Assembly (NCBI RefSeq): GCF_000165465.1
Contig: NC_017455.1
Location: forward strand, 1 to 64,000
DNA: 64,000 nucleotides
From: Halanaerobium praevalens DSM 2228
Lineage (GTDB): Bacteria > Bacillota > Halanaerobiia > Halanaerobiales > Halanaerobiaceae
Direction of reading: 5' to 3'
Under the pieces are notes generated by a model, which was given only the letters and a program-made list of their open reading frames with translations, made no database searches and was not told where the DNA came from. How positions within the stretch are numbered: position 1 is the first letter of the stretch; the number at the start of each line of letters is the position of its first letter. This document shows positions 15,890 to 42,266 of this stretch, piece after piece. A program made the position numbers and the translations under genes.

Positions 15890-15918
15890 TTGACAATTGC
15901 GATATTGGGTGGTATAAT
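15890..15918 (+). promoter_or_regulatory. Promoter of the glycerol operon
   Basis: TTGACA (15890-15895), 17-bp spacer, TATAAT (15913-15918): a consensus sigma-A promoter. Such strength fits control after initiation by the leader terminator at 15966-16030. Confidence 0.88.
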
Positions 15919-16137: not shown

Positions 16138-16497
16138 ATGAAAAGACAATTAGGAACAATGGTAGGTGGAGCAATAGCTGGTGTTTTTGTTTTTAATATC
16201 TGGGGTATTTTAGCTGGTACTCAAGCACTTGGAGATGCTGGAGGCTGGTTAGGTGGACTTTTAATAGTTGGTTTTATCTGGACTGTTAATCATTATGTAG
16301 GAGTTATTTATAATCCTGAAGGTTCGGTTGCAATTGATATGGCTACAGCCATTGCTGTTGCTGGTACAATGCAGGGAGTATTTGGTGGCTTACCACTTAG
16401 TGGAGCTTTACCAACTTTATTGTGGGTTGCTGTTGGAGCAGTCTTAGGTGGTACATTTGCTGCAATTGTTCAAAATGCAATAGCTGAAGACGAATAA
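16138..16497 (+). CDS. Small membrane protein, candidate glycerol transporter subunit A
   Basis: A 119-aa protein with about four hydrophobic segments (about 7-27, 35-52, 66-88, 92-114). Key pieces are GGLLIVGFIWTVNH, IDMATAIAVAGTMQG and LPTLLWVAVGAVLGG. These align with GGLVMGGFIVGTSWLANH, IDMAWAASIGIMTHG and VPTLIFAIIGGIIGG in the next gene, so the two are paralogous subunits. The start follows GAGAGAGGTG. It lies in a glycerol operon that lacks a glpF gene, directly before glpK. I recall a family annotated as a two-subunit putative glycerol transporter (Lin0368 type) in Listeria-like glycerol loci, but could not check it. Transport is inferred from context. Confidence 0.75.
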   Translation: MKRQLGTMVGGAIAGVFVFNIWGILAGTQALGDAGGWLGGLLIVGFIWTVNHYVGVIYNPEGSVAIDMATAIAVAGTMQGVFGGLPLSGALPTLLWVAVGAVLGGTFAAIVQNAIAEDE

Positions 16498-16517
16498 AAG
16501 AGAGGGGGAGTTAACAA

Positions 16518-16859
16518 ATGGGTATTCAAGAAATAGCTACTACGGTTTTTGGTGGAATGCTTTTCCCATTCTTAATTTTAATGGTTTGGGGTAAAGGTGT
16601 TGAAGAAAGAGGTATTTTTGGTGGATTAGTAATGGGTGGCTTTATTGTTGGAACAAGTTGGCTTGCTAATCACGGTGGTGCGGCTTTAATTGTACAGGGT
16701 CAAGGTGCTCCTTGGATTGATATGGCTTGGGCTGCTTCTATTGGGATTATGACACATGGAATAATAACTGGTGGAGATTTCAAAAAATCTGTACCTACAT
16801 TGATATTTGCAATAATTGGTGGAATTATTGGTGGATATATTTTATTTGCAGCAGCTTAA
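16518..16859 (+). CDS. Small membrane protein, candidate glycerol transporter subunit B
   Basis: A 113-aa membrane protein starting 20 nt after the previous gene, with ribosome site AGAGGGGGAG. Hydrophobic segments lie at about 8-25, 33-50, 66-86 and 93-112. It shares with its neighbour the Asn-His pair after a glycine-rich helix (WLANHGG against VNHYVG), the IDMA motif and a final glycine-rich helix. A pair of similar short subunits suggests a heteromeric channel or carrier. GlpK lies 74 nt downstream. The likely substrate is glycerol, inferred from the operon only. Confidence 0.75.
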   Translation: MGIQEIATTVFGGMLFPFLILMVWGKGVEERGIFGGLVMGGFIVGTSWLANHGGAALIVQGQGAPWIDMAWAASIGIMTHGIITGGDFKKSVPTLIFAIIGGIIGGYILFAAA

Positions 16860-16900: not shown

Positions 16901-18430
<1,530 letters not shown>

Positions 18431-18568: not shown

Positions 18569-20044
18569 TTGTCTAAAAATAATTATGATGTAATTATTGT
18601 TGGAGGAGGTATTTCTGGTTGTGCAGTTGCCTGGAAACTTGCTCGTTATAATTTAGATGTACTATTATTAGAAAAAGAACCTGATGTTGCGACTGGTACA
18701 ACAAAGGCTAATACAGCAATTATTCATGCTGGTTATAATGCTGATCCCGAAAAGCAAAAGGGAAGATTAAATAATAAAGGTAATGTGCAAATTAAAGAGA
18801 TAGTAAAAGATTTAAATGTACCCTTTGAAGAAATCGGCTCTTTAGTGGTTGGAATGGAGGGTGATGATTTAAGTGTTTTAGATGATCTATTAGAAAAAGG
18901 TAAGAAAAATGGGGTAGAAGGTTTAAAAATAGTTGATAAAGAATGGCTGCAAAAAGAAGAACCAAATTTAAGTGATAAAGCAGTAAAGGCTTTATGGGCA
19001 CCTACTGCTGGGATAATAACCCCTTGGGAATTTGCTTTAGCTATGGCCGAAAATGCTGTAGCAAATGGAGTGGAAGTAAAATTAGAAACTGAAGTTTTAG
19101 ATGTTTATACAGAAGCAGATCAGGTAAGAGGAGTTAAAACTAATCAAGGAGATTTTAAAGCTGATTATGTTATTAACGCTGCTGGTCTTTATGCTGATGA
19201 AATAGCTAAAATGGTTGGAGTAGAAAAAATTGATATTCATCCTAGAAAAGGTGAATACTTTATTTATGACCATGCAAAGGATTTTGAAATAAACCATGTT
19301 TTATTCCCAATTCCAACAAAAATTTCTAAAGGAATTGTTTGCACTAAAACTGTTGAAGATAATCTTTTGATTGGGCCAACTTCTGATTTTGTTGATAGTA
19401 AAGAAGATCTTGCTACAACTAGAGAAGGTTTAGATCATGTTTTTAATGGTGCTAAAAAAATGTTTCCAGATTTAACTTTAAAAGATAGTATTAGAGTTTT
19501 TGCGGGTTTAAGAGCTGCTGATACAACTGAAGATTTTGTAATTGAAGCTGCAGAAAATGTTGCTGGTTTTGTTAATGTTGCTGGAATTCAATCTCCTGGT
19601 TTATCTTCAGCTCCAGCTATTGCAGATCTGGTAGCTGAAATATTAGAAGATCAAGGCTTAAAGCTAGAAGCTAAAGCTGAAGTAATAGAAACCAGAGAAG
19701 ATCCTGCTAGATTTTATGAAATTTCAAATGAAGAAAGAGCAGCCTATGCTGAAAAAGATAAAGATTATGGTAAAATCATTTGCCGCTGTGAAACTGTATC
19801 TTATAAAGAAATTGTAGATGCGATTAATGGTCCAATTCCAGCTAGAACTATAAATGCTGTTAAAAGAAGAACTAGAGCTGGAGCTGGAAGATGTCAGGGA
19901 GGATTCTGTGGACCTAGAGTTACAGAAATAATTGCTGAAGAACTTGGAATTGAGACAACTGAGGTTAGACTAGAAAAAGATAATTCAAATATTGTTGAAC
20001 ATAAAATCAAAGGATTACTCGGGAGTCAGGGTGATGTAGAATGA
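18569..20044 (+). CDS. Anaerobic glycerol-3-phosphate dehydrogenase, GlpA-like
   Basis: FAD enzyme expected to oxidise G3P to dihydroxyacetone phosphate. It has 491 aa from a TTG preceded by GGGAGG. The Rossmann motif VGGGISGCAVAWKLAR is at about 11-26. The C-terminal BFD-type [2Fe-2S] domain has Cys in IICRCETVSY (about 411/413) and GRCQGGFCGP (about 446/451). The next two genes overlap or abut it, giving the three-part GlpA / GlpB-like / DUF1667 module of anaerobic Firmicutes. Naming as glpA or glpO differs between databases, so I leave the symbol open. Confidence 0.92.
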   Translation: MSKNNYDVIIVGGGISGCAVAWKLARYNLDVLLLEKEPDVATGTTKANTAIIHAGYNADPEKQKGRLNNKGNVQIKEIVKDLNVPFEEIGSLVVGMEGDDLSVLDDLLEKGKKNGVEGLKIVDKEWLQKEEPNLSDKAVKALWAPTAGIITPWEFALAMAENAVANGVEVKLETEVLDVYTEADQVRGVKTNQGDFKADYVINAAGLYADEIAKMVGVEKIDIHPRKGEYFIYDHAKDFEINHVLFPIPTKISKGIVCTKTVEDNLLIGPTSDFVDSKEDLATTREGLDHVFNGAKKMFPDLTLKDSIRVFAGLRAADTTEDFVIEAAENVAGFVNVAGIQSPGLSSAPAIADLVAEILEDQGLKLEAKAEVIETREDPARFYEISNEERAAYAEKDKDYGKIICRCETVSYKEIVDAINGPIPARTINAVKRRTRAGAGRCQGGFCGPRVTEIIAEELGIETTEVRLEKDNSNIVEHKIKGLLGSQGDVE

Positions 20045-21321
20045 TTAAAATTAAAAAAGATGTAGTAGTTATTGGTGGAGGTCCTGCTGGTTTAGCTGCA
20101 GCTGCTCAGGTTTATGATAATGGAATTAAAGATGTCATGATTTTAGAGCGTGATTTTGAATTAGGGGGAATTTTACCACAGTGTATTCATAATGGTTTTG
20201 GACTTCATCATTTTGGGGAAGAATTAACTGGCCCAGAATATTCTCAAAGATTTGAAAATGATGTAGAAGCAAGAGATATAGAGGTAAAGCTTGATACAAT
20301 GGTACTTGATGTTACAGCAGATAAAAAAGTTTTTGCAATGAATAAAGATCAAGGTGCAATGGAGATTCAGGCAAAAGCTGTAATTTTAGCAATGGGATGT
20401 CGGGAAAGAACAGCTGGTGCTTTAGGAATTCCGGGGACTAGACCAGCTGGAGTTTTAACTGCAGGAACTGCTCAAAGATTTACTAATATTGAAGGATTTG
20501 TACCTGGTAAAAAAGTAGTTATTTTAGGTTCTGGAGATATTGGTTTAATTATGGCCAGAAGGATGAGATTAGAAGGGGCAGATGTAAAAGCAGTATGTGA
20601 AATTTTACCATATACAGGTGGTTTAACTAGAAATGTAGTTCAGTGTTTAGAAGATTACGATATTCCTTTAAAGTTAAAGCATACAGTAACTAGAATTATT
20701 GGTAATGATAGACTAGAAGCTGTAGAAATAACAGAAGTTGATGATCAGATGAATCCGATTCCTGAAACTTCGGAAATCGTAGAAGCTGACACCTTATTAC
20801 TTTCAGTTGGTTTGATACCAGAAAATGAATTATCTAAAAAAGCCAATGTTAGTTTAGATGATCGAACAGGTGGTCCGATAGTAAATGAAGGTCGGGAAAC
20901 AAATATTGATGGTATTTTTGCTTGTGGTAATGTATTACATGTGCATGATTTAGTTGACTGGGTGACTGAAGAATCACAAATTGCTGGTGACTGGGCAGCA
21001 AAATATATTAAAGAAGAATATCAAAGAGCAGATCAAAAAATAGCAGTTAAGGCAGGGAAAAATGTTGCTTATGTAATTCCTCAAAGTATTGAATTAGAGT
21101 CTGAAAGTAGAAAAAGAATACCTTTATATATGAGAGTTAGTACTCCTTTGACAGCTGTTGACATTGAGTTATATGCTGATGGAAAAGAACTTTATTCATT
21201 TACAGAGCCTTTTGCTAAACCTGGTGAAATGATTAGTGTTCCTCTAGCTCAAAAAACACTTGATGATTTAGAAGGCGTTAGTGAAATAAGGGTTGATATT
21301 ATAGAAAAGGAGGCTGAATAA
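20041..21321 (+). CDS. FAD/NAD(P) oxidoreductase, second G3P dehydrogenase subunit
   Basis: A 426-aa flavoprotein. The first dinucleotide motif VIGGGPAGLAAAAQ is near residues 10-23, PQCIHNGFGLHHFGEELTGP follows, and a second nucleotide motif VVILGSGDIGLIMARRM lies near 160. It has a C-terminal small domain. The ATG overlaps the previous stop (ATGA at 20041-20044), and the following gene starts immediately after its own stop. It probably passes electrons from the GlpA-like subunit through the Fe-S protein encoded next to NAD or another acceptor; the acceptor cannot be told from sequence. Confidence 0.9.
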   Translation: MIKIKKDVVVIGGGPAGLAAAAQVYDNGIKDVMILERDFELGGILPQCIHNGFGLHHFGEELTGPEYSQRFENDVEARDIEVKLDTMVLDVTADKKVFAMNKDQGAMEIQAKAVILAMGCRERTAGALGIPGTRPAGVLTAGTAQRFTNIEGFVPGKKVVILGSGDIGLIMARRMRLEGADVKAVCEILPYTGGLTRNVVQCLEDYDIPLKLKHTVTRIIGNDRLEAVEITEVDDQMNPIPETSEIVEADTLLLSVGLIPENELSKKANVSLDDRTGGPIVNEGRETNIDGIFACGNVLHVHDLVDWVTEESQIAGDWAAKYIKEEYQRADQKIAVKAGKNVAYVIPQSIELESESRKRIPLYMRVSTPLTAVDIELYADGKELYSFTEPFAKPGEMISVPLAQKTLDDLEGVSEIRVDIIEKEAE

Positions 21322-21693
21322 ATGCTTGAAAAACAAACTATTACCTGTGTTGCTTGTCCAAAAGGATGTGAAGTAACAGTTGAGCATGATGGTGAAGAAA
21401 TAATAAATATAATGGGTAATGCCTGTCCTCAAGGAGCTGACTATGCAAAAGAAGAAATAGTTGCTCCAACTAGAATTTTACCAACAACAGTTAAAGTCAA
21501 AGGTGGAGCTTTACCACTTTGTCCAGTCAAAACTACAAAGCAAATTCCTTTAGAAAATATGGATCAGGCGATGGCAATTATTGGCTCCAAAGAAATAGAA
21601 GCACCTTTGAAGATGGGAGATGTGATTATCGAAAATATTTTAGATACAGGGGCAGATGTAGTTGCTACTAGAGATTTACCTAAAAAAATATAA
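21322..21693 (+). CDS. DUF1667 iron-sulfur-type subunit of G3P dehydrogenase
   Basis: A 123-aa cysteine-rich protein. Conserved Cys occur in ITCVACPKGCEV (8, 11, 15 by rough count), GNACPQGA and LPLCPVKTT. This pattern is the DUF1667 family, which accompanies the two flavoprotein subunits. The cysteines suggest a metal or Fe-S site for electron transfer. The start codon abuts the previous stop, so stoichiometric coupled translation is likely. A T-poor hairpin (21718-21766) follows the gene. Confidence 0.88.
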   Translation: MLEKQTITCVACPKGCEVTVEHDGEEIINIMGNACPQGADYAKEEIVAPTRILPTTVKVKGGALPLCPVKTTKQIPLENMDQAMAIIGSKEIEAPLKMGDVIIENILDTGADVVATRDLPKKI

Positions 21694-21717
21694 AAAAGTC
21701 TCAATAATTTATAAAGT

Positions 21718-21766
21718 GCTAAATCAGATTAATTTAAACAGTAAAGTAATTTTAGTCTGATTTAGC
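21718..21766. terminator. Hairpin after the G3P dehydrogenase genes
   Basis: Arms GCTAAATCAGATTA (21718-21731) and TAGTCTGATTTAGC (21753-21766). No real T-run follows, so termination is uncertain. It may instead stabilise the upstream mRNA. Confidence 0.5.
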
Positions 21767-21803
21767 ATTATGATTATTATCTTGAAATAGAGGGAGTCAG
21801 ATT

Positions 21804-23648
21804 ATGGAAATATTAAAAACTTTTAATTTAATTAGTTTTATTTTTGGAATTATTATCTCATCTTTATTATTTTTAAGTATTAATTATTTTAAAGCAGAAA
21901 AAAACAAAGCTGAAGAAAAAGATCTTAAGCATCAAAATGATTTTCAAAAAAGTGAAAATAAAAAAGAACATGCCAATAAATTATTAAATTTGTCCCAAGA
22001 AATTTCTTTTAAATCTCAAGATTTAATTTGGTTAATTAATGAAAACAATAAAAAAGCAGCTGAATTAGTTAAGAGGTTTGAAAATATATCTGGTTCAGTT
22101 GAGAATAATGCAGCTGCAGCTGAAGAAATTTCAGCTACAATTGAAGAACTTTCTTCTTCTTCTAATATTATTAAAGAAGAAATGACTAAATTAGAAGCAA
22201 TAGCTCAAAACTTAGTTTTAGATTCAGAAAAAAATAAAAATTGGATTCAAGAATCAAACAATACTTTGCTTGAAATAGCAAAAAATGTTAAAAAATCTGG
22301 AGATTCTATTGGTAGTGTAGAAAAAGCAGTTGAAAAGGCAAATCAACTCTTAGCAGGGATTATTCAAATAACTGATCAAATAAATTTATTAGCTTTAAAT
22401 GCTTCAATTGAAGCTGCTAGAGCAGGTGATGCTGGTCGAGGTTTTAATATAGTTGCAGGAGAAATAAAAAGTCTTTCTGAAGAAACTGAAACTTTAACTG
22501 CAGAAATTAGAAGAGCAATTAATGATATAAATTTAGAAATTAAAAATACTGATCAAATAATTGAAAATGGACTTGAAAATATTGAAGGAGTAGAAGAATT
22601 AGCTGGTAAGTCAATTGAATCTTTTAGTTTAATGAATGAAAAACTACATAAAGTTATGGATTCAGTCTCAAAATTATCTGAGAGTACTGATAATCAAGCT
22701 TCAGCAACTGAACAAACAACTGAAGCTGTTGAATCAATGACCCAAGAATTTATCAATATTTCTGAAAATATTGCAGAAGTAGATAAAAATATAAAAGATC
22801 AAAAAGATAATTCTAAGACAATACTAGATTATTCTGAAAATTTAAATACAGTTTCTTATAAACTGCATAAAATTTCAGTAGCAAATAAGACTAGTGAAAT
22901 GTTGATTTTTGGAGTTAATCCTTTTACTAAACCTGAAAGAATTGAAGAATTATATGTACCAATTATTACTAAATTAGCTAAAAAAATTGGCAAAAAGGCT
23001 AAAACAATTATAGTTGCTGATTATGAAGAATTAGGTAAGTATATAAAAAATGATTTAATTGATATAGGTTGGTTTTCGCCAATGGCTTATGTAACAGCTA
23101 AGAGAAAAACTAATATAATTCCTTTAGTAACTCCTTTAATTGAAGGTAAAGCTAGTTATCAAGGTTATATTTTTAGCCGCAGAGATAGTAAATATAATAG
23201 TTTAAAAGATTTAAAAAATAGCAACTTTGCTTTTGTAGACCCATTATCAACTTCTGGTTATGTTTATCCAAAGCAGATGTTAAAAGAAGTAGGGATTAGG
23301 GTACCAAATGATCTGCAAAAACAAGAATTTATGGGGAATCATGATAATGTGATTAAAGCAGTTTTAAATTCTGAAGTTGATGCTGGAGCAACTTATAATG
23401 AAGCTTGGGAAAGGGCTGCCCAAACTTTTAATTTAAACAAATTAGAGATTTTAGCAAAAACTGATCCGATTCCAAAAGATGTCATTGCAGCGAGATCAGG
23501 ACTGGAGCAAGAAATTTTAACTGCAGCTAAAACTATTTTCTTAGAAGCAGATAAGGAAATAAAATCTACTTTAAATAAAACAAATATTACTGGTTTTACA
23601 GCAAGTGATGATCAGAAATTTGATATTATTAGAAAATATAGCAGCTAA
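21804..23648 (+). CDS. Chemoreceptor signalling domain fused to PhnD-like binding domain
   Basis: A 614-aa protein with unusual order. One N-terminal membrane helix (about 7-28) is followed by a Lys-rich stretch, predicting that the rest is cytoplasmic. A long methyl-accepting coiled coil follows (about 60-360), with the hairpin tip [17 protein letters not shown] at about 199 and the flank [10 protein letters not shown]. From about 368 to the end it resembles PhnD-type phosphate/phosphonate binding proteins: [41 protein letters not shown]. The PhnD part is homologous to the secreted protein at 33945. Position between G3P dehydrogenase and dhaK suggests sensing tied to glycerol use. No che genes are nearby. 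Confidence 0.88.
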
Positions 23649-23744: not shown

Positions 23745-24737
23745 ATGAAGAAAAAATTAATTAATAATCCAGAACAGGTAGTAGAAGAGATGATTGAAGG
23801 AATAGTAATGGCCACTCCAGATAAACTGAAAAAATTAGATGATTATAATATTGTAGTTCGCAAAGATAAAAAAGAAGGAAAAGTTGCTTTAGTAAGTGGT
23901 GGAGGTAGTGGACATGAACCAGCTCATGCTGGTTATGTTGGTGCAGGTATGCTTGATGCTGCTGTTGCAGGTGATGTTTTTACATCTCCAACTCCAGATG
24001 CTGTTTTTGAAGCTATTAAAGCTGTTGATACAGGTAATGGTGTTTTATTAGTTGTTAAAAATTATACTGGTGATATTATGAATTTTGAAATGGCTGCAGA
24101 AATGGCAGAAGCTGAAGGTATAGAAGTTGACCATGTTGTTGTTAATGATGATGTAGCAGTAGAAGATAGTTTGTATACTACTGGTCGCCGTGGAGTAGCA
24201 GGTACTATATTTGTGCATAAAATTGCTGGAGCCAAAGCTGCAGCAGGGGCGGATTTAGCTGAAGTCAAGGCAACTGCCGAAAAAGTGATAGATAATGTTA
24301 GAACTAAGGGAATGGCTCTTTATCCTTGCCGAGTTCCAGCTGCAGATGAGTCCACTTTTAGTTTAGCTGAAGATGAAATAGAATTAGGAATTGGAATTCA
24401 CGGAGAGCCAGGAACAGAAAGAACGGAATTAATGGAAGCAGATCAAATTGTAGAAGAATTATTAAATAGTGTTTTAGAGGATTTACCTTATGCTGAGGGA
24501 GATAATGTGGCCCTAATGATTAATGGTATGGGAGGAACTCCTTTAATGGAACTATTTCTTGCTAATAGAAAAGCTAATCAAATGCTGCAGGATAAAGGAA
24601 TTAAGATTGAAAAAACTTTTGTGGGAGAATATATGACTTCTTTAGAAATGGCAGGAGTTTCAATTACTTTATTGAAACTAGATGCTGAATTAAAAGAATT
24701 ACTTGCAGCAGCAACTGAAATCCAAATTATGAAATAA
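23745..24737 (+). CDS. dhaK: Dihydroxyacetone kinase subunit DhaK
   Basis: Substrate-binding subunit of PEP-dependent dihydroxyacetone kinase, 330 aa. GGGSGHEPAHAGYVG near residues 47-61 forms the phosphate-side loop. GIGIHGEPGTER contains the His that binds dihydroxyacetone covalently. The start follows AAGGAGGG. dhaL follows after 19 nt and dhaM after that. Together they convert dihydroxyacetone to DHAP. A glycerol dehydrogenase to supply dihydroxyacetone is not in this window. Confidence 0.97.
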   Translation: MKKKLINNPEQVVEEMIEGIVMATPDKLKKLDDYNIVVRKDKKEGKVALVSGGGSGHEPAHAGYVGAGMLDAAVAGDVFTSPTPDAVFEAIKAVDTGNGVLLVVKNYTGDIMNFEMAAEMAEAEGIEVDHVVVNDDVAVEDSLYTTGRRGVAGTIFVHKIAGAKAAAGADLAEVKATAEKVIDNVRTKGMALYPCRVPAADESTFSLAEDEIELGIGIHGEPGTERTELMEADQIVEELLNSVLEDLPYAEGDNVALMINGMGGTPLMELFLANRKANQMLQDKGIKIEKTFVGEYMTSLEMAGVSITLLKLDAELKELLAAATEIQIMK

Positions 24738-24756: not shown

Positions 24757-25374
24757 GTGGTAGAAAAAACTAAAGAGATTATAAATAAAATGGCAGATCT
24801 AATTATTGAAAATAAAAAATATTTAACTGAGTTAGATTCTGCTATTGGTGATGGAGATCACGGAATTAATATGACTAAAGGTTTTAAAAAAGTTAAGGAA
24901 AAGTTAGCTGCTAAAGATTATGAAAATAATAAAGAATTGATAAAAACTGTGGCTATGACCTTGATTTCAACTGTTGGTGGAGCTTCTGGCCCACTTTATG
25001 GAACAGCCTTTTTAAATATAAGTAAAATTATACCAGATGCTGATTTTGATTTAGATTCTTTAATCGAGATTGGAGAAGAAGCAGTAGCAGGTGTCCAAAA
25101 AAGAGGTAAAGCAGAACAGGGAGAAAAAACAATGTTAGATACTATGATCCCAGCTGTTAATTCACTTAAGGAAAGTAAAGAACAGGATCATGATTTAGAA
25201 ACTGCTTTAAAAAAGGCTAAAGCAAGTGCAGAAGAGGGAATGAAAGCCACCATTGAGATGCAGGCAACTAAAGGAAGAGCAAGCTATTTAGGTGAAAGAA
25301 GTATTGGACATCAGGATCCAGGTGCTACTTCTACTTATTTAATAATTAAAACTGTTGTAGATGAATTGTATTAA
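24757..25374 (+). CDS. dhaL: Dihydroxyacetone kinase subunit DhaL
   Basis: ADP-binding subunit, 205 aa, with a GTG start after GAGGAGG. The Mg-nucleotide site shows DSAIGDGDHGINM (about 27-39), GGASGPLYGTAF and GEKTMLDTM. The C-terminal RASYLGERSIGHQDPGA is typical. In the PTS type, DhaL keeps ADP permanently bound and is re-phosphorylated by DhaM, which is encoded next. Confidence 0.97.
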   Translation: MVEKTKEIINKMADLIIENKKYLTELDSAIGDGDHGINMTKGFKKVKEKLAAKDYENNKELIKTVAMTLISTVGGASGPLYGTAFLNISKIIPDADFDLDSLIEIGEEAVAGVQKRGKAEQGEKTMLDTMIPAVNSLKESKEQDHDLETALKKAKASAEEGMKATIEMQATKGRASYLGERSIGHQDPGATSTYLIIKTVVDELY

Positions 25375-25392: not shown

Positions 25393-25785
25393 ATGGTAAA
25401 TATAATTTTAGTTTCACATGTTAAAGAAATTGCTGAAGGTACTAAAAGACTAGCAGAACAAATGAATCAAAATCAAGTTAAAATAACTGCTATTGGTGGA
25501 ACTACAGATGGAGAAATAGGTACAAGTCCAGATTTGATTGAAGAAGCTGTAGCAGAAGCTAATAAAGAGGATGGAACTATAATTTTAGCTGATTTAGGTA
25601 GTGCAGTAATGAGTGTGAATATGGTTTTAGACTGGTTAGATGAAGCAGAAAGAGAAAAAATTGTTTTAGCAGATGCACCATTTGTAGAAGGTGCTGTAGT
25701 TGCTGCTGTTGAAGCTGGAATGGGTAATAAAATGGAAGAGATCTTAGAATCAATCCAGGCTGTAGAAATGATAAAAAAGAAATAA
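25393..25785 (+). CDS. dhaM: PTS-dependent DHA kinase phosphoryl carrier DhaM
   Basis: A 130-aa EIIA-like (mannose-type fold) protein. The phosphorylated His is in ILVSHVKEIAEG (His 9), and IILADLGSAVMS is the second conserved motif. It is a single-domain DhaM, without the HPr and EI-like extensions found in E. coli, so it must receive phosphate from general PTS proteins encoded elsewhere. It is the last gene of the glycerol/DHA block and is followed by a strong terminator. Confidence 0.95.
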   Translation: MVNIILVSHVKEIAEGTKRLAEQMNQNQVKITAIGGTTDGEIGTSPDLIEEAVAEANKEDGTIILADLGSAVMSVNMVLDWLDEAEREKIVLADAPFVEGAVVAAVEAGMGNKMEEILESIQAVEMIKKK

Positions 25786-33944: not shown

Positions 33945-34796
33945 ATGAAAAAAAAGCTAAGATTTATTCTATTATTATTATTTTTTATGCTACTAAACAA
34001 TTTTCTTTATGGAGTAATAGCTGCTGCTGAAACTGTTAGTTTAGGTATCCCTTCTAAAAATTCAGCTTTAACATTATTTAGTAATTGGAAGCAAATAACA
34101 GCAGAAGTTTCTAAAAGAAGTGGTTATCCTCTAGAAATTGTAATGGTCAAAAATCATCAGCAGTTAACAGAAAAAATGAAAGCAGGTGAAATTGATTTAG
34201 GTTATTATTCTCCTTTTTTTTATGTTGAAGCTGCTAAAAAAATTGATTTAACTCCTTTAGTGATGCGGGTTAAATTTGGCAGTCCTTATTATCGCGCTGG
34301 TTTTATAGTTAGTAAAGAATCTGAAATTAATTCAATAAATGATTTAAAAGATAAAAAAATAGCTTTAACAGCAGAAGCAGATTCTACTTCTGGCTATTAT
34401 ATTCCACTATCTATGTTAAAAAATAATAACTTGGATTTAAAAAAAGATCTCAAGCTTGTTTTTACAGGTAAACATATTAATGTTTTAAAAAGTGTAGTTT
34501 ATCAGTCAGTTGCTGCTGGTGCCATAAAATTGTATATTCTAGATGAAGCTGCTAATCAAAAATTTAGGTCTCAGATTAAAATTATAGAGCGTTCTTTTTA
34601 TTTGCCTGGTTCTTCAATTGCTGTGCTTAGTAATTTTGATCCAGAAAAACTAACTAAAATCAAAGCTGCTTTTTTAAGTTTAGCTACAGATAGTAAAGGT
34701 TTAGAAGCTCTTAAAGCAATGCAATTTGATGGTTTTGTAATTAGTAATGATCAATTATATAATCCAGTGAGGGATTATTTGAAAAATTTAGATTAA
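33945..34796 (+). CDS. Exported PhnD-like phosphate/phosphonate-type binding protein
   Basis: A 283-aa protein with a signal peptide (about 1-28, ending YGVIAAAE). It is a periplasmic-binding-protein fold of the PhnD type: VSLGIPSKNSALTLF, IDLGYYSPFFYVEAA, YRAGFIVSKES, ALTAEADSTSGYYIP and AGAIKLYILDEAA. No phosphonate ABC transporter or phn enzymes are nearby. Instead a histidine kinase and its regulator follow directly, so I infer it is the ligand-binding partner of the kinase rather than a transport protein. Homologous to the C-terminal half of the protein at 21804-23648. Confidence 0.85.
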   Translation: MKKKLRFILLLLFFMLLNNFLYGVIAAAETVSLGIPSKNSALTLFSNWKQITAEVSKRSGYPLEIVMVKNHQQLTEKMKAGEIDLGYYSPFFYVEAAKKIDLTPLVMRVKFGSPYYRAGFIVSKESEINSINDLKDKKIALTAEADSTSGYYIPLSMLKNNNLDLKKDLKLVFTGKHINVLKSVVYQSVAAGAIKLYILDEAANQKFRSQIKIIERSFYLPGSSIAVLSNFDPEKLTKIKAAFLSLATDSKGLEALKAMQFDGFVISNDQLYNPVRDYLKNLD

Positions 34797-34846
34797 TTTA
34801 AGTATCTATTTTAATAAATAGAAATAAAAATTAAGAGGTTTTTATC

Positions 34847-36235
34847 TTGTCCTTAAAAAAACGTTTAATTATATATATAATGCTTATTTTCTTATTTGTC
34901 ATGGTTTTTGTTGGCTATATTTTAATTTCTCAACAAAAAGATATATTTCAAGAAGAAATAGAAAGAAGAGGTCGACTTTTAGCAAGTACTTTAGCTAAAA
35001 TAAGTAGAGAGCCAATCCTTGTTTATGAATTTAGTGCTCTTAATCAAAATGTACTTTCCTTTAAAGGTGAAAAAGGAGTAATTGAAGCTAAAATTTTAAA
35101 TAATAAAGGTCGCATTGTAGCTTCAATTGATAAAACAGAAGAAGGAGAATTTGCAGCTGCTAAATACTTTTCGGATTCCAAACAAAGTTATTTTGCAGAT
35201 AAACTTTTGAGTATAGAAAAAATTAAGCATAACGAACTTGAAATGGGAAGAGCAGTTATAGTTTTATCTTTAGATTCAATGAATAAAAAAATAAATTATT
35301 CTGTTAAAATGATAGTTTTTATTTTAGGAATATCCTTTGTATTTTTATTTATATTTATTAATTTTGCTTCTAGTTATTTACTTAAACCAGTAATTTTACT
35401 AACTAATTTAGTTAGAAAAATTCCAGACAGTAAATTTGAAATTGAAGCATTAAAAAAGCAAAATCCACCAGCAGAATTAGAAGAACTTTATAATTCAATT
35501 ATCTGGATGTACGAAGAAATGCTCCTTATTCGTAAAAGATTAATTGAAAAAACACAAATGGCAACTATCGGTAAAATGTCTGCCTATTTTGCTCACGAAA
35601 TAAGGAACCCCTTAGAAGCAATGTCGGGAGCAGTAGAGGTTTTGAAAATTAAAGGTGATTTTTCTAATTCTAATAAAATGTTTTTTGATATTATAAAAGA
35701 AGAAATAGCTACTCTGAATAGTTTTTTAGATGAATTTTTAAATTTTACTAGAATTAAATCATATTCTTTTGAAAAATTTAATTTACCTAAACTAATTAAA
35801 GATATTATAATTTTATTGAAACCAATGTTTAAAGCTAAAAATATTGAATTAGTTTTTGATTTTGCAGAAAATGAAATTTTAATCGAAGCTGATCTTAATA
35901 AAATAAAAAGTGTAATTACAAATATTTTATTAAACGCCAAAGATGCGATTAAAGAAAAGGGACTTGTTAAAATAGAGCTGACTAAAAAGCAAGATTTAAT
36001 CGAAATTAGAATTACAGATGATGGTCAGGGAATAAATAAAGCTGATTTAGATAAAATATTTAATCCCTTTTTTAGTACCAAAAAGGCAGGAAACGGAATT
36101 GGTTTAAGTATTGCTAAAGAAATAATTGAAGCTCATAAAGGCAAGATTTTAGTTAACTCTACTGCAAATACTATTTTTAGGATCCAATTACCTTTATCTG
36201 AGGATGATATAAATGAAAAAAATTCTAATAGTTGA
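34847..36235 (+). CDS. Sensor histidine kinase
   Basis: A 462-aa membrane kinase, TTG start after AAGAGG. TM1 is about 5-27, an extracytoplasmic region about 28-148, and TM2 about 149-175. A linker follows, then the H-box AYFAHEIRNPLEAMSG (His about 249), N-box NILLNAKDAI, G1 TDDGQGI and G2 GNGIGLSIAKEI. It resembles the NtrB/DctB-type kinases that partner with sigma-54 regulators. The regulator gene overlaps its 3' end by 23 nt. The PhnD-like protein encoded upstream may deliver the signal to its outer domain. Confidence 0.93.
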   Translation: MSLKKRLIIYIMLIFLFVMVFVGYILISQQKDIFQEEIERRGRLLASTLAKISREPILVYEFSALNQNVLSFKGEKGVIEAKILNNKGRIVASIDKTEEGEFAAAKYFSDSKQSYFADKLLSIEKIKHNELEMGRAVIVLSLDSMNKKINYSVKMIVFILGISFVFLFIFINFASSYLLKPVILLTNLVRKIPDSKFEIEALKKQNPPAELEELYNSIIWMYEEMLLIRKRLIEKTQMATIGKMSAYFAHEIRNPLEAMSGAVEVLKIKGDFSNSNKMFFDIIKEEIATLNSFLDEFLNFTRIKSYSFEKFNLPKLIKDIIILLKPMFKAKNIELVFDFAENEILIEADLNKIKSVITNILLNAKDAIKEKGLVKIELTKKQDLIEIRITDDGQGINKADLDKIFNPFFSTKKAGNGIGLSIAKEIIEAHKGKILVNSTANTIFRIQLPLSEDDINEKNSNS

Positions 36236-37520
36236 TGACAAAAAGAATATCTGTCGAGTTTTGACTGCAATTTTGGCAGCTGAAAATTATCTTGTTGACT
36301 CTGCTAATGATCCTTTAAAAGCTGTTGAGAAAGCTAAGAAATTTAAGCCAGATTTAATTATTTCAGATATTAAAATGCCTGGTTTAAATGGTTTAGAATT
36401 TTACCAACTTCTATTGCAAAATAATTTGGATTTAAAATTAATATTTATGACTGCTTTTGGTAGTATTCCAATGGCTGTTGAGGCAATTAAAATGGGGGCT
36501 TCGGAATTTTTAACTAAACCAATTGATTATGAAGAGTTAAAATTAAAAATTCGTAATTTATTATTTGATAATCAAAGTAATATTGCTTCTCATTATACTG
36601 AAAAATATCCTAAAATTATTGGTCAGAGTCAGGCAATTATAGATTTAATTGAAAAAATAGATTTAGCAGCAGATTATAGTTCAACAGTTTTAATTCAAGG
36701 AGAGAGTGGAACTGGCAAAGAGCTTGTAGCTCAAGCTTTACATTATCACAGTCAGAGAGCTACCGAAAAGTTTGTTGCTGTTAATTGTGCTGCTTTAGGT
36801 AGGAATTTAATTGAATCAGAGTTATTTGGCCACCGTAAAGGAGCTTTTACAGGTGCTATAAGTGATAAGAAAGGAAAATTTGAAATAGCAGATGGTGGTA
36901 GTATACTTTTAGATGAAATCAGTGAAATTGATTTAGATATTCAGGCAAAACTTTTACGTGTTTTACAAGAAAAAGAATTTGAAAAAGTTGGTGAAAATAG
37001 GACAATTAAAAGTGATGTGAGAGTAATTGCAACTACTAATCAAAATTTAGCTGAAATGGTAAAAAATAATAAATTTAGAGAAGACCTTTATTATCGTTTA
37101 AATGTGATTCCGATTTTTATGCCTCCTTTAAGAGCCAGAAAAGAAGATATTAAATTATTAGTTGATTTTTTTATAGATAAAATTTGTGAGAAAGAAAAAA
37201 TTGTAAAGAAAACAATTAGCCAAGAAGCTATTGATGTCTTAAAACAGCATAATTGGCCAGGGAATGTAAGAGAATTAGAACATGTAATAGAGCGTTTAAT
37301 AATTACAAACAGAAGTGAGAAAATATCTGCTTTAGCTGTTTATAATGAGCTGCCAAAGAGTAAATTAGAGGCTGCTAAATCTGGTTTAACAGAAAAAGAG
37401 AAATTAATTGAGGCTTTAAAAATAGCAAAAGGGAATAAAACAGAAGCAGCTAAAATTTTGGCAATCTCGAGAAGGACTCTTTATAACTGGCTGCAAAAAT
37501 ATGGTTTAGAAGAAGCCTAA
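36213..37520 (+). CDS. NtrC-family sigma-54-dependent response regulator
   Basis: A 435-aa activator. The receiver domain (1-118) has DD at 8-9 and the phospho-acceptor Asp in IISDIKMPGLNG. The AAA+ domain has Walker A GESGTGKE, the sigma-54 contact loop GAFTGA, DGGSILLDEI and RLNVIPIFMPPLR. The Fis-type helix-turn-helix is KTEAAKILAISRRTLYNWL. It is translated in overlap with the kinase. A -24/-12 promoter at 37723-37736 before the transporter genes and a palindrome at 37542-37558 are its likely targets. Confidence 0.95.
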   Translation: MKKILIVDDKKNICRVLTAILAAENYLVDSANDPLKAVEKAKKFKPDLIISDIKMPGLNGLEFYQLLLQNNLDLKLIFMTAFGSIPMAVEAIKMGASEFLTKPIDYEELKLKIRNLLFDNQSNIASHYTEKYPKIIGQSQAIIDLIEKIDLAADYSSTVLIQGESGTGKELVAQALHYHSQRATEKFVAVNCAALGRNLIESELFGHRKGAFTGAISDKKGKFEIADGGSILLDEISEIDLDIQAKLLRVLQEKEFEKVGENRTIKSDVRVIATTNQNLAEMVKNNKFREDLYYRLNVIPIFMPPLRARKEDIKLLVDFFIDKICEKEKIVKKTISQEAIDVLKQHNWPGNVRELEHVIERLIITNRSEKISALAVYNELPKSKLEAAKSGLTEKEKLIEALKIAKGNKTEAAKILAISRRTLYNWLQKYGLEEA

Positions 37521-37541
37521 TTTCAGCTGAGAAAGCTTTAC

Positions 37542-37558
37542 ATTTTGGTGTGCAAAAT
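37542..37558. promoter_or_regulatory. Candidate enhancer site for the NtrC-type regulator
   Basis: Inverted repeat ATTTTG-GTGTG-CAAAAT just after the regulator gene, about 185 bp upstream of the sigma-54-like promoter; a usual distance for activator sites of this class. Confidence 0.45.
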
Positions 37559-37600
37559 AAAAAAAATTATACATTTTAAGAAAATAATTTATTTCAATTA

Positions 37601-37633
37601 AGGAAACCAGTTTTGAGTGGTTTCCTTTTTTTT
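37601..37633 (+). terminator. Terminator after the response regulator gene
   Basis: GGAAACCA-GTTTTGA-GTGGTTTCC followed by nine T residues, separating the sensor genes from the transporter genes. Confidence 0.9.
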
Positions 37634-37720
37634 ATTAATTAAATGAGATTAAGGGCTGTTAAAATAGGCTTCAAGCTTAAATAAATAATTTGTTATCTTT
37701 TAATTATACTTTAGTTAAGT

Positions 37721-37738
37721 TAGGAATAAAAATTGCAT
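37721..37738 (+). promoter_or_regulatory. Sigma-54-type promoter of the TTT transporter
   Basis: TAGGAATAAAAATTGCAT: GG at 37723-37724 and GC at 37735-37736 with exactly 10 nt between, matching the invariant GG-N10-GC of -24/-12 promoters. It lies 38 nt before the coding start and downstream of a sigma-54 activator gene. Confidence 0.65.
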
Positions 37739-37774
37739 TAGTTATAGTTGAATAAAAAAAGGGAGGAATTTAAA

Positions 37775-38725
37775 ATGAAAAAAGTTCTATTAATTTTATT
37801 AATCTTAGCAATGTTTTTTAGTTTAACTATTAGTAATGCAGCTGCAGCTTATCCAGAAAAACCAGTGCAGATGATTGTTGCTTTTAGTGCTGGTGGAGGA
37901 ACAGATACAGCTGCTAGAACAATAGCAAAATATTTTAAAAGATATACCGATCAGTCTTTAGTAGTTGTTAATAAACCAGGTGGAAGTGGGGAAGTTGGAT
38001 TTACTCAATTAGCTATGGCCAAAACAGATGGTTATACAATTGGTTTTCTAAACACACCTCATGTTGTTACACCACCAATTATGAGAAAGACTAATTTTAG
38101 TTTAGATAGTTTTGTTCCCATTGCAAATATTGTTACAGATCCTGGTGTTTTAGTTGTTAGAAATGATGATCAGTTTGCAAATTTAGCTGAATTTATTCAG
38201 TATGCTCAAGCAAATAAGATTAGTACTGCAAGTGGAGCTCCTGGTGGAGATGACCATTTAGCCGGTTTAAATATTATGGATGAGACAAATGTTAAATTGA
38301 CTATGATTCCATTTAATGGTTCTTCAGAACAAAAAAGTCAATTATTAGGTAAACATGTAGATGCTGCCTTAATGAATGCAAGTCAGGTTAAATCATTAGT
38401 TGATGCTGGTGATTTAAAAGTATTAGCAGTAATGGCTAAGAAAAGAAGCAGTTATTATCCAGAGGCACCAACCTTTATTGAAGCAGGTTATGAAGTTGTT
38501 TCTGGTTCTTCAAGAGGAATAGCAGCTCCTAAAGGAATGGACCAAGCTCAGATTGAAAAATTAGCTGCAGTTTGTGCAAAAATTGTAAAAGATGAAGATT
38601 TTTTAAGAGAAGCTGAAAATCTTAATTTAATTATGGATTATATGCCTCAAGCTGAATATCAAGCTTATTTAGCAGAAATGAATGCTAAATACAGCAAAAT
38701 GTGGGAAGCTAATCCTTGGAATTAA
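37775..38725 (+). CDS. tctC: Tripartite tricarboxylate transporter, binding protein TctC
   Basis: Exported solute-binding protein of a TTT carrier. I use ATG 37775, which follows GGGAGG by 8 nt, giving 316 aa; an in-frame TTG at 37748 lies before that ribosome site. The signal peptide is about 1-24. Typical Bug/TctC motifs are YPEKPVQMIVAFSAGGGTD, VVNKPGGSGEVGF and the C-terminal AAPKGM. The substrate is probably a carboxylate but cannot be read from sequence. A terminator downstream would make this protein more abundant than the membrane subunits. Confidence 0.93.
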   Translation: MKKVLLILLILAMFFSLTISNAAAAYPEKPVQMIVAFSAGGGTDTAARTIAKYFKRYTDQSLVVVNKPGGSGEVGFTQLAMAKTDGYTIGFLNTPHVVTPPIMRKTNFSLDSFVPIANIVTDPGVLVVRNDDQFANLAEFIQYAQANKISTASGAPGGDDHLAGLNIMDETNVKLTMIPFNGSSEQKSQLLGKHVDAALMNASQVKSLVDAGDLKVLAVMAKKRSSYYPEAPTFIEAGYEVVSGSSRGIAAPKGMDQAQIEKLAAVCAKIVKDEDFLREAENLNLIMDYMPQAEYQAYLAEMNAKYSKMWEANPWN

Positions 38726-38737
38726 ATTTTAAATTTA

Positions 38738-38766
38738 AAGTCGGGAATTAGTCCCGGCTTTTTCTT
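38738..38766 (+). terminator. Attenuating terminator between tctC and tctB
   Basis: AAGTCGGGA-ATTAG-TCCCGGCTT then TTTCTTT. Partial read-through would give excess binding protein over the membrane subunits. Confidence 0.8.
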
Positions 38767-38833
38767 TGCTTAAAAAATATAATTATTTTAATTAGTAATT
38801 ATTATAAAATTAGAAACTAAGAGGTGAATTTAA

Positions 38834-39331
38834 ATGGAAATGTGGAAAAGAGATAGAATAGTTGCTATCTTTATGCTTGTTTTATCAGGCTTAGCTTATT
38901 ATGGGAGTAGATCCTTTTCAGAAATGGCACAAATTTTTCCTACTTACATCATTTATGTTTTAGCAATTCTTTCTTTGCTGCTTTTGCTAAAAACTTTTAA
39001 TAAGGATAATTATAAGCATATAGAACAAGAAGTAGATCAAAAAACAGGTGAAGTTAAAGAGGTTATTGAAAAAGCTGAGGTAGTTACAATTGATCAAGAA
39101 GGTAAAAAAAGAGTGTTAATTACTGTACTTGCAACTATTGCTTATATATATTTAATGAATTATTTAGGCTTTTTTGTGACAACTTATTGTTTTATGTTTG
39201 TTTTATTTACCCTGCTAAAAGTAAATAATTTAATGGTGAAAATATTTGTACCATTATTTACTTCTGCTTTTGTTTTTTTGATTTTTAGAGTCTTTTTAAC
39301 AGTTCCCACCCCAAAGGGGATATTTTTCTAA
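38834..39331 (+). CDS. tctB: Tripartite tricarboxylate transporter small subunit TctB
   Basis: A 165-aa membrane protein with four hydrophobic segments (about 9-25, 33-52, 95-115, 120-160) and a charged cytoplasmic loop between the second and third. It belongs to the TctB family by length, topology and position between tctC and tctA. The start follows AAGAGGTG. tctA begins 16 nt later. Confidence 0.88.
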   Translation: MEMWKRDRIVAIFMLVLSGLAYYGSRSFSEMAQIFPTYIIYVLAILSLLLLLKTFNKDNYKHIEQEVDQKTGEVKEVIEKAEVVTIDQEGKKRVLITVLATIAYIYLMNYLGFFVTTYCFMFVLFTLLKVNNLMVKIFVPLFTSAFVFLIFRVFLTVPTPKGIFF

Positions 39332-39347
39332 AAAGGAGTTGAGATAA

Positions 39348-40850
39348 ATGTTTGGAATGGTATTTAATGCTTTTTCGGTTTTATTAATGCCTATCAATTT
39401 ATTAGCTGTTGCGGCAGGGATGGTTTCGGGAATTATAGTTGGAGCTCTGCCTGGATTAACAGCAACAATGGCTGTGGCTTTATTAGTGCCAGTAACTTTT
39501 AGTATAAATCCAATTACAAGTTTAGCTATGTTAGGTGGAGTTTATTGTGGTGGTATTTATGGAGGTTCTATTTCTTCAATACTTTTAGCTACTCCAGGAA
39601 CACCAGCTGCAGCAGCTACTGCTATTGATGGTCATCCAATGGCCCAAAAAGGAGAAGCTGGTCAAGCTTTAGGAATAGCAACTATTAGTTCTTTTTTCGG
39701 AGGAATTACTAGTGCAGTTGCTTTATTATTTATTTCTACCTGGTTAGTTCAATTTGCCTTAAAATTTGGCCCTTCAGAGTATTTCTTTTTAGCTGTTTTA
39801 GGTTTAACTACAATAGTAACTTTATCAACTGATTCATTACTAAAGGGACTTTTAAGTGGAGTTTTTGGACTTTTAATTGCAACAGTGGGGATGGATCCAA
39901 TTAGTGCTTTTCCTCGCTTTACTTTTGGCAATGTTAATCTTTTAAGTGGGATTCCTTTTATGCCAGCTATGATAGGGTTATTTTCTGTTAGTCAGGTTTT
40001 GAAATTAATTCGTAAAGGTGGTACAATTTCTAATTCTACTGATAAAGTTAAAATAGGTAGAGTAATGCCTAATTTTAAAGAGTTTAAGAGATTATTACCA
40101 ACTATTTTAAAAGGCTCAGGGATGGGAACAGTAATTGGTATCTTACCTGGAGCTGGTTCAACAATTGCTTCTTTTATTAGTTATAATGAGGCTAAACGCT
40201 CAGGCAAAAAAACAGATATATTTGGAGAAGGAGAACCTAAAGGGGTAGCTGCTACAGAGTCCGCTAACAATGGTGTAACAGGTGGTTCTTTGATTCCTTT
40301 ACTTACTTTAGGAATTCCTGGTAATTCAGTTGCAGCTGTTTTATTAGGTGGATTAATGATTCAAGGTTTAATTCCTGGTCCAGATCTTTTTACTCTATAT
40401 GGTGATATAACTTATGCTTTTATTGTTTCCTTATTTATAAGTAATATTTTTATGTTAGTTATTGGTTTAGCAGGTGCTAAATATTTTGCGAGGGTAACAA
40501 ATGTTTCAAATAAAATATTAGTACCTATTATTTTAGTCTTAAGTGTTATTGGTTCTTTTTCAATTCAAAATAGTATTTTTGATGTTTGGTTGATGTTTGG
40601 TTTTGGTCTTTTAGGATTTTTATTTAATTTCCTTGGTTTTTCTTCAAGTCCAATTGTTTTAGCTTTAATTTTAGGACCAATAGCAGAAGAAGGATTTACT
40701 AGATCAATGCTTTTATCTGGAGGAGAATGGGGAATCTTTTTTAGTAACCCAATTTCTATAATTTTAATTAGTCTTTCAGTTATAGCTTTAATACCACCAA
40801 TTATCCGTTATCTTAAAGATAGAAAGAAAATTTCGGAAAAAAATAATTAA
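39348..40850 (+). CDS. tctA: Tripartite tricarboxylate transporter large subunit TctA
   Basis: A 500-aa permease with about 12 membrane helices. Family motifs are GALPGLTATMAVALLVPVTF, GGVYCGGIYGGSISSILL, TPGTPAAAATAIDG and the second-half repeat GILPGAGSTIASFISY with EGEPKGVAATESANN and LTLGIPGN. It would import a carboxylate with the TctC protein using an ion gradient. Expression is probably controlled by the two-component system encoded upstream. The mgtC-like gene follows within 6 nt. Confidence 0.95.
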   Translation: MFGMVFNAFSVLLMPINLLAVAAGMVSGIIVGALPGLTATMAVALLVPVTFSINPITSLAMLGGVYCGGIYGGSISSILLATPGTPAAAATAIDGHPMAQKGEAGQALGIATISSFFGGITSAVALLFISTWLVQFALKFGPSEYFFLAVLGLTTIVTLSTDSLLKGLLSGVFGLLIATVGMDPISAFPRFTFGNVNLLSGIPFMPAMIGLFSVSQVLKLIRKGGTISNSTDKVKIGRVMPNFKEFKRLLPTILKGSGMGTVIGILPGAGSTIASFISYNEAKRSGKKTDIFGEGEPKGVAATESANNGVTGGSLIPLLTLGIPGNSVAAVLLGGLMIQGLIPGPDLFTLYGDITYAFIVSLFISNIFMLVIGLAGAKYFARVTNVSNKILVPIILVLSVIGSFSIQNSIFDVWLMFGFGLLGFLFNFLGFSSSPIVLALILGPIAEEGFTRSMLLSGGEWGIFFSNPISIILISLSVIALIPPIIRYLKDRKKISEKNN

Positions 40851-41693: not shown

Positions 41694-42266
41694 GTGTCAT
41701 ATTTAGCAAAAATTTTAAATCAGAGTCCTGTAATTGCTGCAGTTAAAAGTATTAGTGATATTCAAAAGGTACCTGAAAAAATAAATGTTATTTTAATTTT
41801 ATATACTGATATTTTTTATTTGGAAAAAATGATCGACTTAGCAGTTGCCAAAGATCTCCTTGTTTTATTACATGTAGATTTATTTAAGGGGCTAAGTCGA
41901 GATGAATATGGAATTAAATATTTAGCTCAAAAAACAGGAATTGATGGTATTGTTTCAACTAAAGGCTATTTGATTAAAGCTGCTAAAAAACATAATTTAA
42001 TTGCTGTCCAAAGATTGTTTATTTTAGATTCATCCGCTTTTGAAAAAGCTTTGAGAATTGTAAATGATGCTCAACCAGACTTTATAGAGGTTTTACCTGG
42101 ACTTGTTTATCCCCGGATTGCGAAAAAGCTGAGAAGAAGGATTAATCAACCTTTAATTGCAGGTGGAATGATCGAAAAAACTAAAGATATTGATGATATT
42201 TTAGCTGCAAAGGCAATTGCTATTTCTACTAGTAATAAAAAATTATGGACTTATAGAAATTATTAA
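41694..42266 (+). CDS. glpP: Glycerol-3-phosphate-responsive antiterminator GlpP
   Basis: A 190-aa RNA-binding TIM-barrel-type regulator; GTG start after GAGGTG. Family marks are SPVIAAVKSISD, HVDLFKGLSRDEYG, DGIVSTKGYLIKAAKK, AVQRLFILDSSAFEKA, FIEVLPGLVYP, PLIAGGMIE and AISTSNKKLW. In Bacillus, GlpP with G3P binds glp leader RNAs and blocks a terminator. Two leader hairpins sharing a motif in this window (15966-16032 and 42412-42499) are the natural targets, so this gene probably links G3P level to glycerol and glycerophosphodiester use. Confidence 0.93.
   Translation: MSYLAKILNQSPVIAAVKSISDIQKVPEKINVILILYTDIFYLEKMIDLAVAKDLLVLLHVDLFKGLSRDEYGIKYLAQKTGIDGIVSTKGYLIKAAKKHNLIAVQRLFILDSSAFEKALRIVNDAQPDFIEVLPGLVYPRIAKKLRRRINQPLIAGGMIEKTKDIDDILAAKAIAISTSNKKLWTYRNY

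Follow-up and report, generated by a model that had tools for sequence, protein, structure and literature searches.

The first 64,000 nucleotides of contig NC_017455.1 of Halanaerobium praevalens DSM 2228 (the window, read on the forward strand; the genome is a single contig of 2,309,262 bases) contain a gene in which the signalling hairpin of a chemoreceptor is joined to a PhnD-type ligand domain and which is flanked by genes of glycerol metabolism (Table 1). This raises the questions of where in the cell a binding fold located behind such a hairpin would operate, which ligand it would hold and whether the glycerol genes around it reveal its function.

Table 1. Features of the fusion gene and of the glycerol array that surrounds it (positions in the window).
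Feature	Position	Strand	Basis or remark
Perfect sigma-70 consensus TTGACA-17-TATAAT before the whole array	15890..15918	+	consensus match only
Two tandem small membrane proteins, DUF6905, upstream of glpK	16138..16859	+	domain search
Glycerol kinase GlpK	16934..18430	+	ORF; 66-94% identical homologues recur beside fusions
GlpA-like FAD G3P dehydrogenase (DAO + Fer2_BFD)	18569..20044	+	domain search
GlpB-like pyridine nucleotide-disulphide oxidoreductase (Pyr_redox_2)	20041..21321	+	domain search
DUF1667 protein	21322..21693	+	domain search
18-bp A+U-rich RNA hairpin between DUF1667 and fusion genes	21715..21769	+	z -4.45; no U tract
Fusion CDS (membrane helix, MCP hairpin, PhnD-type domain)	21804..23648	+	614 aa; ORF and domain search
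Single N-terminal membrane helix, no HAMP behind	21828..21893	+	about residues 9-30; hydropathy
MCP hairpin arms	21927..22883	+	residues 42-360; Pfam MCPsignal core 22251-22745
Hairpin tip region, expected CheA/CheW contact	22398..22463	+	residues 199-220; invariant or near-invariant positions
PhnD-type (type II PBP) ligand domain	22899..23645	+	residues 366-614; Pfam match 22908-23618
Stretch with ligand-site residues Y407, Y452, S482, S484, H513, E533, D559	23022..23480	+	
DhaK	23745..24737	+	domain search
DhaL	24757..25374	+	domain search
DhaM (EIIA-man, PTS phosphoryl donor)	25393..25785	+	domain search

The initial annotation described an N-terminal helix followed by the MCP part and a PhnD-type domain, an order that is confirmed by Pfam, hydropathy and an AlphaFold model. 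Hydropathy predicts one membrane helix, at about residues 9-27. MCPsignal (PF00015) covers residues 150-314 (E 2.5e-31, 109.3 bits against a cut-off of 34.6) and Phosphonate-bd (PF12974) residues 369-605 (E 4e-64, 216.7 bits against 27), and a Pfam search of the whole 614 aa found neither a HAMP domain nor any further sensor or input domain. With NCBIfam, the PhnD-type part exceeds the cut-off of TIGR01098 (163.1 against 112.05 bits) and falls short of that of the PhnD equivalog TIGR03431 (152.6 against 261.1 bits); matches to PF12974 and TIGR01098 over the curated cut-offs place it in the PhnD/PhnT substrate-binding family. The AlphaFold model, based on an alignment of 61 sequences and with a mean pLDDT of 85.8, consists of a helix at residues 9-36, a helical stretch at 42-360 that forms the MCP hairpin (one run in DSSP) and, directly behind the hairpin, a type-II binding-protein fold at 366-614 with a pLDDT of about 93. 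As in the MCP family generally, residues 199-220 are the expected contact with CheA and CheW.

The location of the PhnD-type domain can be approached through the membrane helices of its relatives. Of 75 full-length homologues, two N-terminal membrane helices are predicted in 40 and one in 8; in the other 27 none was detectable, although this class may contain a few weak helices below the prediction threshold; no membrane helix was found after residue 120 in any of the 75, and none lies between the MCP and PhnD parts. At least 13 members start about 50 residues later, directly before the coiled coil, which leaves no space for a membrane helix. The layout of a classical transmembrane MCP is not present either, as the segment between the helices is too short for a domain and HAMP is absent. 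The tip of an MCP has to meet CheA in the cytoplasm, and because no later membrane crossing exists, a cytoplasmic location of the PhnD-type domain is well supported by the sequences. Comparison of the homologues thus shows the predicted role of the N-terminal helix to be that of an anchor, with all remaining parts of the protein inside the cell. The original proposal that both domains are cytoplasmic stands, and export of the PhnD-type domain is ruled out by the helix-free members together with the absence of a helix between the two parts. A weak charge bias in the sequence around the single membrane helix could speak for an inverted topology that places the domain outside, or the C-terminal domain could be a docking or structural part that binds nothing; this is extremely improbable, since the ligand-site residues rank among the most conserved of the domain, the soluble members exclude export and the MCP part must meet CheA inside.

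The same architecture recurs widely. An architecture search for the MCP-PhnD order, which had been proposed as a check, aligned the fusion over both domains in 21 of the 398 genomes sampled from the phylum, and a scan of genome contigs with the PhnD part as query gave at least 565 relatives; for 73 of the best 80, the match belongs to a full reading frame of 540-745 aa in which the domain order is unchanged. Hosts include Halanaerobium, Halanaerobacter, Tepidanaerobacter, Pelosinus, Anaerovibrio, Selenomonas, Clostridium, Acetobacterium, Alkaliphilus and Lachnospiraceae, as well as Acetomicrobium (Synergistota) and Spirochaetota MAGs outside the Bacillota. A chance or purely local fusion is ruled out by the recurrence of the order in other genomes, and because orthologues and far homologues retain it, neither the fold nor the domain order can be accidental. 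The MCP tip and the ligand site are invariant in the alignment of 61 fusions. In a tree of PhnD domains, a single branch (98/94) separates the fusions from the standalone proteins, with the standalone rows S_L064 and S_L067, which are in the wrong frame and form a false long branch, disregarded by eye. This topology is consistent with the fused domain having arisen once. A search of plasmids yielded no fusion spanning 80% of the query.

Among known receptors, Helicobacter pylori TlpD (PMC12871147) is comparable, being a cytoplasmic receptor whose sensor comes behind the MCP hairpin, at the opposite end from the CheA tip; the AlphaFold model of the fusion likewise has a C-terminal sensor behind the hairpin. 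The two differ in the sensor itself, which is a CZB zinc domain (a helical bundle) in TlpD and a two-lobed PhnD-type domain without a CZB match in Pfam here, and the fusions, unlike TlpD, are often membrane-anchored and occur mainly in Bacillota.

Membership in the MCP family is indicated by the MCPsignal match, by near-invariant tip residues and by the presence of CheA in the genome. H. praevalens has one CheA (dimer domain at 608290) and 18 MCPs. In a second genome of the genus (G013), the orthologue (L166, 9423-11261) lies outside any glycerol operon and near fliW, cheA, two cheW, cheC, cheD, a gene for a CheY-like regulator and flagellar rod genes. This neighbourhood, together with the cheA and the 18 MCPs of H. 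praevalens, supports the role in swimming that was suggested from the sequence.

In H. praevalens, the fusion gene is part of a same-strand array with the order DUF6905-DUF6905-glpK-glpA-glpB-DUF1667-[fusion]-dhaK-dhaL-dhaM, in which no terminator-like site was found. Domain searches bear out the flanks as first described, with G3P dehydrogenase genes upstream and DhaK, DhaL and DhaM downstream, and add glpK, which the initial annotation did not mention and which heads the array behind the two DUF6905 genes. The DUF1667 protein is probably a GlpC-like partner of clostridial G3P dehydrogenase, and the RNA hairpin preceding the fusion gene is possibly an element of mRNA processing or attenuation. 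No MIP/GlpF is present in the H. praevalens genome, and none of the glycerol-linked fusion loci combines DUF6905 with GlpF beside glpK; pairs of DUF6905 proteins may act as a glycerol facilitator that has so far gone unrecognised. GlpP, the G3P-responsive antiterminator (PF04309, 4.1e-60), is encoded at 41694-42263, about 18 kb from the fusion and outside the glp array.

The link to glycerol extends well beyond this locus. The commonest neighbours of the fusions are GlpK, GlpP, GlpA, GlpB-like proteins and DUF1667, with GlpF close behind. In 25 of the 66 loci that could be scored, i.e. those with enough flank, glpK, glpA, glpB, glpP, glpF or dhaK lies within 8 kb of the fusion in varying orders; the remaining 41, including those of Selenomonadaceae, Anaerovibrio, Lachnospiraceae and Acetobacterium, have no glycerol gene within 8 kb and the same mapped pocket residues. 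The gene glpK is immediately upstream of the fusion in Clostridium carboxidivorans, C. muellerianum and C. magnum, glpP lies upstream and glpK downstream in Alkaliphilus, glpP-glpA-glpB-DUF1667-glpF-glpK sets are found on either side in Clostridium bovifaecis (L091, 8816-10756), and dhaKLM follows in Tepidanaerobacter and Halanaerobium. When mapped on a tree of the 90 fusions, the glycerol label requires 13 changes, and well-supported branches force at least 9 of these, so the link was gained or lost many times. The figures for proximity and co-occurrence are partly inflated by kinship and uncorrected for motility: glpK lies within 12 kb of the fusion in 13 of 24 fusion genomes (0.4 expected), 1 of 84 other MCP genes in six such genomes is as close to it, and GlpK was found in 20 of the 21 genomes with a fusion compared with 157 of the 377 without one (Fisher 6e-7). 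Close pairs of fusion and glpK occur in 5 of 12 families. The differing gene orders and the scatter of the label over the tree argue that the association is not a local chance. Operon partnership, on the other hand, can reflect shared regulation alone. Two further observations concern single loci: the adjacent glpK of C. muellerianum (L120, 7063-8778) matches in two overlapping pieces, perhaps due to a frameshift or an assembly error, and genome G307 has a short MCP-like ORF about 5 kb past glpK (L175, 6835-7485).

Further indications of the ligand come from the fold. The nearest solved folds are HtxB, ArrX, PtxB, PhnD, AioX and GpxB (Z 25.5 to 21.8); of these, ArrX and AioX are established sensor subunits. 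PtxB, ArrX and AioX, which bind phosphite, arsenate and arsenite in the periplasm, resemble the domain with Z scores of 25.0, 25.2 and 22.3 but act outside the membrane, and the fusions lack the capping tyrosine: Asp559, present in 90 of 90 fusions, takes the place of PtxB Tyr208. PtxB owes its preference for phosphite to an aromatic cap over the P-H bond (PMC5700983), and with the PtxB/HtxB-type cap lost, specificity for phosphite, hypophosphite or methylphosphonate is disfavoured. Elsewhere in the window (33945-40850), a second PhnD-type protein is encoded that stands alone and has an N-terminus resembling a signal peptide; the genes behind it specify a histidine kinase, an NtrC-type regulator and a TctCBA transporter. 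The protein appears to be a periplasmic sensor of the PhnD type that serves a two-component system, similar to AioX or ArrX.

The pocket itself can be compared with that of E. coli PhnD (3p7i), a periplasmic protein that binds 2-aminoethylphosphonate (2AEP) and shares the fold, the head residues and a Glu/Asp tail pair with the fusion. Its residues Y47, Y93, S127, S129, H157, E177 and D205 correspond to Y407, Y452, S482, S484, H513, E533 and D559. The phosphoryl-head pattern Tyr, Tyr, Ser-x-Ser, His is found in 90 of 90 fusions, and as all of these residues are kept, the predicted head site is complete; in the tail, D559 is present in all 90 and E533 in 84. The mapped pocket columns are alike in glycerol-linked and other fusions, and the columns that differ most between the two groups lie outside the mapped pocket. 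In contrast to the fusion domain, which is predicted to be cytoplasmic, is joined to an MCP and is 23% identical, E. coli PhnD is the secreted part of an ABC importer. No signal peptide precedes the domain and its neighbours are glycerol genes, which is not the setting of a PhnD/PhnT ABC importer.

The tail pair admits more than one reading. According to PMC12718374, which cites Alicea and Schreiter, Glu177 and Asp205 of E. coli PhnD hold the amine of 2AEP, and the register of E533 and D559 with these two residues would suit a receptor of the same cytoplasmic type that binds a phosphonate or phosphate ester carrying an amine, such as 2AEP or phosphoethanolamine. Such a ligand is credible but unlikely, as none of the 20 annotated common neighbour families serves the use of phosphonate or ethanolamine and glycerol genes are the commonest. 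Carboxylates bind sugar-type hydroxyls as well, and those of E533 and D559 could just as well bind the two hydroxyls of G3P. A complete phosphoryl head might also serve for inorganic phosphate or the general pool of phosphate esters, with the receptor reading the phosphorus or energy state of the cell, and phosphate-bound structures of this fold exist for AioX and Synechococcus PhnD. We consider this very unlikely: cytoplasmic phosphate, being millimolar, would keep a PhnD-type site saturated, the conserved tail pair suggests a ligand that has a tail, and the gene context is that of glycerol.

The ability of the PhnD fold to hold G3P is evident from GpxB (9lf9; Z 21.8), the one protein with this fold for which a report of G3P binding was found. 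GpxB is a periplasmic transporter component of the PhnT family with the same phosphoryl-head residues and binds G1P and G3P, the latter with a Kd of about 1 uM (PMC12718374). However, a GpxB-like G3P site is rejected for the fusion, in which Arg223 and Thr247, the glycerol-tail contacts of GpxB, align with E536 and D559. G3P would therefore need a different binding mode, which lowers confidence in this ligand, and because the tail of the pocket is of the E. coli PhnD type and not of the GpxB type, gene context is the main basis of the ligand claim.

Taken together, gene context and pocket point to a cytoplasmic chemoreceptor for a phosphorylated C3 intermediate of the glycerol pathway, with sn-glycerol-3-phosphate (G3P) as the first candidate and DHAP as the second, a reading that we regard as narrowly probable. 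DHAP could take the place of G3P as the signal, being the joint output of the flanking G3P dehydrogenase and the DhaKLM kinase, and dhaK directly follows the fusion in Halanaerobium and in Tepidanaerobacter with its kin. That DHAP is the signal is nevertheless distinctly unlikely, since glpK occurs with glpP or glpF and without dhaK at many of the glycerol-linked loci (L079, L083, L086, L108, L119, L120 and L129), and two carboxylates suit the two hydroxyl donors of G3P better than the single one of DHAP.

A mechanism for a receptor of G3P can be outlined from these comparisons. In the predicted structure, the PhnD-type domain hangs off the C-terminal end of the hairpin, distal to the CheA tip. 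It would close on a small phosphorylated glycerol metabolite, most likely G3P made by GlpK and next DHAP, and closure of the lobes may shift the C-terminal arm of the hairpin and thereby change CheA activity at the tip, as is conceivable by analogy to TlpD-like receptors. Swimming would then be set by the amount of glycerol taken up and phosphorylated and not by external glycerol, and the cell would be attracted to glycerol according to the amount imported and phosphorylated. An internal sensor within a glycerol operon implies that the cell probably steers by a product of glycerol that is already being consumed. Glycerol chemotaxis of E. coli requires glpK as well, with a signal that enters via the PTS and no dedicated receptor (PMC4996493); a response after phosphorylation by GlpK is common to that system and to the one proposed here.

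Cytoplasmic receptors with C-terminal sensors and binding proteins of the PhnD fold are already known, each separately. What appears to be new, as judged from the literature searched, is their combination inside the cell and its tie to a metabolic operon: a limited search of open-access literature found no paper describing an MCP-PhnD fusion, although domain databases may list the architecture. Metabolism-dependent chemotaxis is a long-standing idea, and few receptors are known to bind a defined intracellular intermediate. Tentatively, and as a claim that is plausible but falls just short of probable, the fusions may form a class of cytoplasmic chemoreceptors that is widespread in Bacillota, occurs also in Synergistota and Spirochaetota and apparently has not been described before. 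In this class, an internalised periplasmic-binding-protein fold would measure the central metabolite G3P, and metabolic flux would guide swimming directly via the receptor instead of via energy state or the PTS. The question can be tested at the bench, as there are more than 500 candidate relatives, the soluble sensor domain lends itself to expression on its own and the operon suggests only a few ligands; cultured members are available in Pelosinus, Clostridium magnum, C. carboxidivorans and Tepidanaerobacter. If true, a binding fold of the transporter type would work inside the cell, behind rather than before the signalling hairpin.
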